A stretch of 64,000 nucleotides of DNA, from positions 25,686-89,685 of the forward strand of contig CAITIE010000019.1 of the NCBI GenBank assembly GCA_903892355.1. The letters run 5' to 3'. The notes below the pieces were generated by a model. It was not told the DNA's origin. It worked only from the letters and a program-made list of their open reading frames with translations, and made no database searches. Source of the stretch: an uncultured Pirellula sp. GTDB lineage: Bacteria; Planctomycetota; Planctomycetia; Pirellulales; Pirellulaceae. Positions 46,308 through 48,999 of the stretch are shown piece by piece (the first letter of the stretch is position 1; each line of letters opens with the position of its first letter). Both the position numbers and the translations under genes were made by a program.

Positions 46308-47054
46308 CTAACCGAGGTTTGCGAGTTGCTCAGCGGTGAAGTTAACGTTGGTTGCCACGGACTGAACGTCATCGTGATCCTCTAACTTCTCTAGCAGTTT
46401 CATGACTGACACTGCGGTTTCCGAATCCACTTCAACCGTGAGGTTGGGAACCCTTGTTACCTGTTTAGATTCGATAGCGATCCCCTGTGCTTCGATGACC
46501 TCAACCAGGCCGGTGTAAGCGTCTGTGGGGCAGGAGATTTCAAATGTCTCTTCTCCTTCCGTGACGTCCTCGGCACCATTCTCCAGGGCGATCTCCATGA
46601 GTTTCTCGAGATCCACCGCCGATTGCTTGATGGACAAGAGCCCTTTTCGTTCGAACAAGTAAGCAACACAGTTGGTCGAACCGAGATTGCCACCGTGGCT
46701 ATCGAAGAGCTTTCGGACCTCCGGAGCGGTTCGGTTACGGTTATCGGTCATGATGTCACAAAGGATCGCGACACCACCTGGGCCGTATCCTTCGTAGAGA
46801 ATTTCTTCCACATCACCACCGTCCAGTTCGCCTGTCCCCTTCTTGATCGCCCGATCAATGTTGTCCTTCGGCAATGAAACTGCTTTAGCGTCGATAATCG
46901 CGGTTCGGAGGCGAATGTTGGCGCTCGGATCGCCTCCTCCTAACTTCGCCGCGACAATGATCGCCTTGGACAATTTGCTCCAGAGCTTACTCCGCTTGCT
47001 ATCGACAAGCGCTTTACGGTGTTTGATGTTGGCCCACTGGGAATGTCCAGCCAT
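46308..47054 (-). CDS. YebC/PmpR family transcription/translation regulator
   Basis: 248 residues. MAGHSQWANIKHRKALVDSK is the family opening, followed by SKLSKAIIVAAKLGGGDPSA, NIDRAIKKGTGEL and the GYGPGGVAILCDIMTDNRNR block. YebC-type proteins act as DNA-binding regulators, and some relieve ribosome stalling at poly-Pro. It sits in a run of translation genes (infB, rbfA) and is immediately before hisD (15 bp). Expression is probably with the operon. Confidence 0.96.
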   Translation of the reverse strand: MAGHSQWANIKHRKALVDSKRSKLWSKLSKAIIVAAKLGGGDPSANIRLRTAIIDAKAVSLPKDNIDRAIKKGTGELDGGDVEEILYEGYGPGGVAILCDIMTDNRNRTAPEVRKLFDSHGGNLGSTNCVAYLFERKGLLSIKQSAVDLEKLMEIALENGAEDVTEGEETFEISCPTDAYTGLVEVIEAQGIAIESKQVTRVPNLTVEVDSETAVSVMKLLEKLEDHDDVQSVATNVNFTAEQLANLG

Positions 47055-47107: not shown

Positions 47108-48331
47108 TTACTTGGGTTTCTTTTTGGTGATACTAGCGCCGATGGAAGGCTTCGAGTCCCCTTTTGCAGGTGCATGGCTCTTCTTTGTCGAAGCCTTCGA
47201 ATCATTCTTTGGTTTACTTGAAGTCTTGTCGCTGCTGGGCTTGGACGGGCTCTTCGATTTGGAATCGGTTTTCGAAGAAATCTTGGTAGGTTTGGAGCTG
47301 GCTTCCTTTTTGCCGGTCTCTTTCTTCACGACATCTTTCTTGCCACTATCTTTTTTCGCTACTGCTTTATCGGAAGATGGTTTCGCGGGTGCGTCCTTCT
47401 TGATCGATTTGGTCTCAACGGGCTTGGCAGCAGCGGATGGTTTACTCGGCGCGGGTGCAGTGGCCTTCTTGCCTGCAGCAGTTTTTGCTGCATCGGTCAC
47501 CCCCGGTTTCACATCGGGCTTCTTAGAGTCGTGTCCCTTTGCGTCACCCTTCTTACCCTCACCCGCTGGTGCCGCTGCGGCTTCGACCTTCTGAGGAACC
47601 GCGGGCTTGGCTGGGGCTGGAGCTTGAGGTTTCTTCGTCACAGCAGGCGCCGGTGCTTTCTTTTCCTTTTGTTTATAGGTTACTCCGAGGTCTTTCAGCA
47701 CACCGGTGCTTAATGTCCCCTTGGGATGCTGATGCATCTCGATCGCTAACTGGTGCAATAGCGACGCGAACTCAGTTCCTTTGTTTTTAGGGATCGCTCG
47801 TTCGACGCCTGGTAGTGTGCGTTTCTCCGCTTCTGCGGGGGTAATAATTTCGCATTGGACCAAGGCATCCAAGGTCAAATTGCCGGCAGGAATCGAATGG
47901 CCTCCCAATGCGTGTTGTGACACGTAGGACAACACGAATGGGGTCATGCCCTTCCATGCCTCAAGATCGGCAACGGATTTGCCCAAATTGGCCTTTTTCA
48001 TGTCGTCGATATCGTATTGGTATCGAGACTCAAAGAGCGACTGCAAACACTGCTTGATCCGCGTTGCGGCTTGGGCCGGAAACAGGAGGCCTTGCAACGC
48101 CTCGCCCAGTTCCGCCACGGTGGTTACGCGAACTTCATTCCAGTCGAAGTAAGCCTGTTGCAGTTTTGCGAACGCTTCGTCTGCTTGTTCATGCTTGGCA
48201 TCCTCCAAGCAGCACGCGTAGATCAAATGCTCCAAAACAGAACGTTCTGGTGTTTCAGCGACTGGCTTAAAGTGCTTCTTTAGCGACTTGTAAAGATGCT
48301 CGTATTTGGTTGCTCGATTGCCAGCAGTCAT
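47108..48331 (-). CDS. HhH-GPD-like domain fused to histone-H1-like basic tail
   Basis: 407 residues from ATG 48331 (MTAGNRATKYEHLYKSLKKH). Residues 30-215 follow the endonuclease III/HhH-GPD fold: SVLEHLIYACCLEDAKHEQA, ALQGLLFPAQAATRIKQCLQ, then the helix-hairpin-helix position at 125-137 and the helix carrying the catalytic Asp. Both catalytic sites are lost: the LPGVGxKTA motif reads WKGMTPFVL (no Lys) and VDTH reads PAGNL (no Asp). There is no C-terminal Fe-S cysteine cluster. Residues 222-407 are Lys/Ala/Pro/Ser-rich (KKDSGKKDVVKKETGKKEA), like H1 or Hc1/Hc2 tails, and should bind nucleic acid. It lies between rbfA and yebC, so a ribosome- or nucleoid-linked role is possible. Confidence 0.72.
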   Translation of the reverse strand: MTAGNRATKYEHLYKSLKKHFKPVAETPERSVLEHLIYACCLEDAKHEQADEAFAKLQQAYFDWNEVRVTTVAELGEALQGLLFPAQAATRIKQCLQSLFESRYQYDIDDMKKANLGKSVADLEAWKGMTPFVLSYVSQHALGGHSIPAGNLTLDALVQCEIITPAEAEKRTLPGVERAIPKNKGTEFASLLHQLAIEMHQHPKGTLSTGVLKDLGVTYKQKEKKAPAPAVTKKPQAPAPAKPAVPQKVEAAAAPAGEGKKGDAKGHDSKKPDVKPGVTDAAKTAAGKKATAPAPSKPSAAAKPVETKSIKKDAPAKPSSDKAVAKKDSGKKDVVKKETGKKEASSKPTKISSKTDSKSKSPSKPSSDKTSSKPKNDSKASTKKSHAPAKGDSKPSIGASITKKKPK

Positions 48332-48441: not shown

Positions 48442-48999
48442 CTACCGATCGCTACTCGGATTGGCTCTCAAGTCGCTCTCATCATTGGCATCACCCAATT
48501 CGGCGCCTTGGGTTGCATTGCCTTGGGTTGCATTGCCGTGGGTTGCATTGCCGTGGGTTGCATTGCCGTGGGTTGCATTGAACTCCCCGTCGTGATCCTC
48601 TTGCTCGTCTGGGAGATCGCTCGATGGGGATGTTGGAGGCGGCGTTGATGCCTCGCGTTCGCGAGCTATTTGTTCGAGAATCTGCTGAACCGCGACCGAC
48701 TTTTTAACCCCTTCATCGGTGACGAACGTCAGCCGTGGCGTGTACCGAGTATCGATGCGTTCCGCGATACGGGTTTGAAGGAAACCGCACGCGTTTTGCA
48801 ATCCTTTCAAGGTGGTCTTCTGCTGGCTGTCGTTCCCCATGATGCTGACGAGCACTTTTGCTTCCCGCATGTCCGGGGCCACCTCCACGCCGAGAACGGT
48901 GACGTTCTTTACACGTGGGTCTCGAAGTTCCGTTAGGATCGCCATGGAAACAACCTCTCGGATTGCTTCGGCTGCTTTTAGTAGTCGTCGGGCGCTCAT
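48442..48999 (-). CDS. rbfA: ribosome-binding factor A with pentapeptide-repeat tail
   Basis: 185 residues. RbfA is a KH-like 30S maturation factor. Conserved core (1-115): [59 protein letters not shown]. The C-terminal ~65 residues are non-conserved: acidic linker ([13 protein letters not shown]), then (NATHG)3(NATQG)2 encoded by 15-bp repeats, then another acidic stretch. Usual RbfA is 110-135 residues. The start overlaps the infB stop as ATGA, giving coupled translation in the nusA-infB-rbfA order. Confidence 0.95.
48505..48579 (-). repeat. 15-bp tandem repeat in rbfA tail
   Basis: Five copies of GCC(T/G)TGGGTTGCATT on the + strand (48505, 48520, 48535, 48550, 48565). Read on the minus strand they encode NATHG or NATQG. 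Only one base varies between the two subtypes. Confidence 0.95.

Follow-up and report, generated by a model that had tools for sequence, protein, structure and literature searches.

An endonuclease III-like protein with a lysine-rich tail, encoded beside rbfA in Planctomycetota, is a candidate non-enzymatic adaptor

The stretch of DNA analysed here (the window) comprises 64,000 nucleotides from an uncultured Pirellula sp. of the Pirellulaceae (assembly GCA_903892355.1, contig CAITIE010000019.1, positions 25,686 to 89,685 of the forward strand). On its minus strand the genes run in the order nusA, infB and rbfA, followed by the gene studied here and then by yebC and hisD. The features discussed below are as follows, in positions of the window.

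47108..48331, minus strand: the whole gene (407 residues plus stop), a putative HhH-GPD-derived pseudoenzyme with a Lys-rich tail
47687..48331, minus strand: core domain, residues 1-215, predicted HhH-GPD fold (AlphaFold pLDDT 94.2)
48125..48145, minus strand: family signature DWNEVRV at residues 63-69, identical in all 68 sequences of alignment A4, which was gathered by a pattern including DWNEV
47936..47938, minus strand: codon of F132, at the catalytic Lys position (Lys in 0 of 159 homologues)
47882..47884, minus strand: codon of G150, which takes the place of the catalytic Asp immediately ahead of a predicted helix (151-159); other members lacking Asp have S, N, G, C or T here
47111..47674, minus strand: Lys/Ala/Pro/Ser tail of about 188 residues, pI about 10.2
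47111..47125, minus strand: C-terminal KKKPK-COOH; [KR][KR]KP[KR]-stop is conserved in Pirellulales, with synonymous codons free to change
48442..48999, minus strand: rbfA, directly upstream of the gene in the operon (TIGR00082, 1.2e-23)
46308..47054, minus strand: yebC, directly downstream of the gene (PRK00110, 1.4e-97)

The ATG at 48331 is the start codon supported by homologues. The placement of the gene between rbfA and yebC in a translation operon, as given in the original prediction from this DNA, was confirmed by the TIGR00082 and PRK00110 matches of the two neighbours and by the presence of infB, nusA and hisD on the same strand. No promoter- or terminator-like sites were found on the minus strand among the nusA-infB-rbfA-gene-yebC set, and co-transcription of the gene with its operon neighbours is therefore likely. 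Orthologues were observed in 57 of 60 relatives, which together with a core dN/dS of 0.02-0.07 indicates that the open reading frame is not a chance one; core dN/dS and synteny likewise ruled out that this is not a real gene. The rbfA of Rhodopirellula baltica (RB5503) is induced during cold adaptation (PMC2754498), an observation that bears on the neighbour gene only. The C-terminal extension of RbfA in the window contains a 15-bp tandem repeat at 48505-48580 (5.1 copies, 98% match), encoding a peptide repeat (10 protein letters, not shown).

The AlphaFold model of the core had a pLDDT of 94.2 and a pTM of 0.91, and a Foldseek search with this model gave Deinococcus radiodurans EndoIII-1 as the best PDB match (4.4e-7). 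All 50 matches listed were HhH-GPD proteins (EndoIII, ROS1, NTHL1, MutY, OGG and related), with 16 of these at 1e-3 or below. The TM-scores among the matches listed were moderate, from 0.4 to 0.65, and we therefore regard the core as a diverged branch of HhH-GPD. A profile of 68 family sequences matched D. radiodurans EndoIII-1 over its whole length (5e-18), while its next-best match was Arabidopsis ROS1 (3.4e-10, profile positions 56-164). As a single sequence, the window protein matched solely the NCBIfam DR2438 model (NF053634, MonDNAglycDR2438) at 9.4e-8, with 30-32 bits against a curated cut-off of 400 bits; all 68 family members matched this model, the best E-value being only 4.5e-18. 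The Pfam search of the window protein returned no match, the gathering score of PF00730 not being reached, and no Pfam family covers the protein. Gemmatales-like members (a label that, like the other group labels, reflects record titles and tree position and not full taxonomy) scored only 16 bits against PF00730, where the gathering score is 26.2 bits. In the diverse alignment A2 no stretch was conserved enough for the collection scan, and the DWNEVRV-type alignment was used instead. Profile and model evidence together show a core of HhH-GPD ancestry and predicted fold, so that the N-terminal HhH-GPD layout proposed originally held, as did the suggested fold comparison with EndoIII, in which the predicted fold was again HhH-GPD.

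The scan of approximately 85,000 species retained 80 loci, all Planctomycetota by name, including Rhodopirellula baltica, Stieleria, Botrimarina, Aquisphaera and Gemmataceae. A Pirellulales-only profile found matches in 267 of 392 sampled Planctomycetota genomes, the weakest of which may be other HhH-GPD proteins, and a broader profile found matches in 19 of 20 genomes first scored negative, the weakest of which may be ordinary Nth. Our literature search on planctomycete EndoIII, H1-like proteins and rbfA-linked genes found no paper on this family. The rbfA gene was directly upstream in 146 of the 157 checkable loci; the remaining loci belong to deep forms that bear Fe-S and to a single fusion with a methylase. 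Downstream lies yebC, with a TPR gene between in many Planctomycetia and hisG in another lineage. Examples include L083, L111, L080 and L063, where a TPR protein (Planctomycetia) or hisG comes after the gene and before yebC where yebC is visible; hisG follows the gene in L063 and, by sequence, also in L065 and L067. This synteny bears on whether the gene is a passenger of the operon that does unrelated work, such as regulation together with YebC. Many lineages have the gene adjacent or close to yebC, and so does locus L071, where rbfA was not found upstream, but rbfA is a far more constant neighbour than yebC, from which the gene is separated by a TPR gene or hisG in many lineages, and we consider a passenger role very unlikely. 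Membership of an operon with rbfA, infB and nusA does not prove shared function.

The original prediction also held that the catalytic Lys and Asp are both missing. This applies to the window protein (F132 and G150) but not to the family as a whole. The Lys position was occupied by Phe in 136 of 159 homologues and by Lys in none, whereas the Asp was kept in 107 of the 159, including all Planctomycetales examined as well as the Isosphaerales-like and Gemmatales-like sequences examined, the residue in the remaining sequences being mostly S, N, G, C or T. Orthologues with both residues intact were thus never observed, yet most keep the Asp. In Pirellulales the Asp was repeatedly replaced by S, N, G or C. 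The four-Cys motif of a 4Fe-4S cluster was absent from the window protein, as had been predicted, and from all Pirellulales examined; it was present in 27 of 159 homologues, all of them Isosphaerales-, Gemmatales- or deep-branching forms. The intercalating Gln and the second hairpin Gly (GxG) were each found in 0 of 158 homologues. An intact EndoIII was ruled out by these residue counts. On the family tree the Asp state changed at least 13 times and the Fe-S state once, counts that serve as a guide since the tree was built quickly and contains several long branches. Judged from the aligned residues, catalysis was lost stepwise in the family. The core, given its dN/dS of 0.02-0.07, is strongly constrained by purifying selection, and what is selected is not the EndoIII reaction. 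Among the residues that replace the Asp (S, N, G, C, T), most are helix N-cap residues. Together with the location of the site just ahead of the predicted helix at 151-159, this suggests that in Pirellulales the site has a structural and not a catalytic role.

The same residues bear on whether the protein is still an enzyme, at least outside Pirellulales, either as a monofunctional glycosylase or as an Asp-using lesion sensor with the tail serving in DNA sliding. The Lys is dispensable for monofunctional glycosylases such as MutY and the T/G-mismatch enzyme, the nearest named family (NF053634) is a monofunctional glycosylase, and the breadth of Asp retention and the Fe-S motif of Isosphaerales-like and Gemmatales-like sequences would fit such an activity. 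We nevertheless judge this improbable, given the family-wide absence of the intercalating Gln and second hairpin Gly, the repeated loss of the Asp in Pirellulales while purifying selection continued, and the presence of separate Nth and MutY proteins in the same genome. The Asp retained in all Planctomycetales examined leaves room for glycosylase activity in that order.

Several other HhH-GPD genes were noted. The Nth of the same genome (L031, 1357-2019, minus strand) keeps Lys and Asp as well as the intercalating Gln and the second hairpin Gly, while the spacing of its C-terminal cysteines, C-x5-C-x4-C-x2-C, departs from that of the usual Fe-S motif. The MutY homologue of this genome (L032, 883-2043, minus strand) reads VEANTQR at a site where E. 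coli MutY presumably has LDGNVKR, and Glu thus replaces the catalytic Asp. Genome G196 encodes a fusion of a C-5 cytosine DNA methylase (PF00145, 1.9e-65) with an HhH-GPD domain in which Tyr occupies the Lys position and the Asp is intact (L082, 1776-3626, minus strand); the protein may be a methyltransferase that brings along its own repair of T:G mismatches.

The tail of the window protein contained 50 K, 32 A, 25 S and 23 P in about 188 residues, with a net charge of about +32, in agreement with the H1-like composition noted originally. Across homologues the tail ranged from 18 (a reading cut short) to 354 residues and kept its basic character, with a median pI of 9.5-11.3 in every group, the Gemmatales-like tails being short and weakly charged (28-30 residues, median charge +4). 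The [KR]KP[KR]-stop end was observed almost without exception in Pirellulales, earliest branches included, and in 94 of 159 sequences overall. All synonymous codons are used at this end, so the constraint acts on the protein; a DNA-level constraint at the 3' end of the gene was ruled out by the same free variation. A pattern search of the same genome with the corresponding DNA pattern gave six occurrences, one of which was this gene. The core had a median pI of 6.3 in Pirellulales and of 5.6-5.9 in other rbfA-linked groups, unlike the basic Nth (pI 9.4, Lys and Asp intact) and MutY (pI 9.2) of the same genome, although whole-core net charge says little about the core surface. The acidic-to-neutral core and the lost second hairpin Gly argue against the core binding DNA as EndoIII does, and the tail is the likelier nucleic-acid contact.

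A nucleoid-associated architectural protein, in which the HhH-GPD core and H1-like tail would bind and compact chromosomal DNA, follows the suggestion of the original prediction, which named a possible DNA- or rRNA-binding architectural role, perhaps tied to the compact nucleoid. The fold is ancestrally DNA-binding, the tail composition resembles that of linker histones, and in ROS1 it is a basic Lys-rich domain that makes the protein bind DNA non-specifically and slide along it (PMC3526269). Nucleoids of Gemmata are highly condensed, and the only candidates named in the tomography paper are HU homologues (PMC3440768). The short tails of the Gemmatales-like group, which includes the condensed-nucleoid Gemmata (PMC3440768), are the opposite of what compaction predicts and weaken this reading, while the core pI of about 6, the lost hairpin Gly and the translational operon also stand against it. 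Planctomycetales and Pirellulales have the gene as widely as Gemmatales do, so its distribution does not follow the unusual nucleoid of Gemmata. We regard an architectural role in the nucleoid as unlikely, less so than the enzyme or passenger explanations.

Our preferred reading, to which we give a probability of about 0.6, is that the protein descends from a DR2438-type endonuclease III, has no enzymatic activity and now acts as an adaptor, its core docking a partner and its tail holding nucleic acid. A DR2438-type ancestor would have been fixed early in Planctomycetota within the nusA-infB-rbfA operon, the conserved acidic or neutral core would be a docking platform for a protein partner, the disordered Lys-rich tail would hold RNA or DNA by charge, and the conserved KP[KR] end may form a separate short contact. 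Precursor rRNA or the coupled transcription-translation machinery is the workplace we tentatively place first, because the protein is probably co-expressed with IF-2, RbfA and NusA; the nucleoid comes next and is a doubtful second. Somewhat more speculative than that first workplace is a Planctomycetota-wide ribosome-assembly or transcription-translation factor, in which a repair enzyme became a docking module without catalysis, its histone-like tail binding RNA and, in Pirellulales, a conserved peptide at its C-terminus serving for recognition. The gene is near-universal in a phylum with odd cell biology, yet it has neither a Pfam family nor a paper that we could find. If it does encode an adaptor, it would clearly exemplify how a base-excision-repair fold can be put to work other than repair, and Gemmatales- and Isosphaerales-like lineages would still carry intermediates that keep Fe-S and Asp but have lost Lys. 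The family offers a concrete target for planctomycete genetics, including the compact-nucleoid and ribosome-assembly questions.

Among known systems, linker-histone-like bacterial tails such as those of Hc1 and mycobacterial HupB share the Lys/Ala/Pro-rich low-complexity composition of the window tail. No homology to such tails was detected with Pfam, and the window tail differs in being joined to an HhH-GPD domain and in ending in the conserved KP[KR]. The plant demethylase ROS1 also pairs an HhH-GPD fold with a basic Lys-rich region, but ROS1 is a glycosylase active on 5-methylcytosine and has its basic domain at the N-terminus, whereas the window protein carries its tail at the C-terminus and lacks the catalytic Lys. 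We know of no rbfA link or Lys-rich tail for D. radiodurans EndoIII-3. This HhH-GPD protein has undetectable EndoIII activity, its likeness to the window family as predicted, and is described as Deinococcaceae-specific (PMC10523315). EndoIII-1 of the same species (DR2438; NF053634), mostly a monofunctional glycosylase that can also process single-stranded DNA (PMC10523315), is the closest system by profile (5e-18) and by fold (Foldseek 4.4e-7 among the matches listed). EndoIII-1 has the Lys, the Asp and an Fe-S cluster, whereas the window protein is without the Lys, carries a basic tail and scores about 30 bits against the 400 of the curated model.
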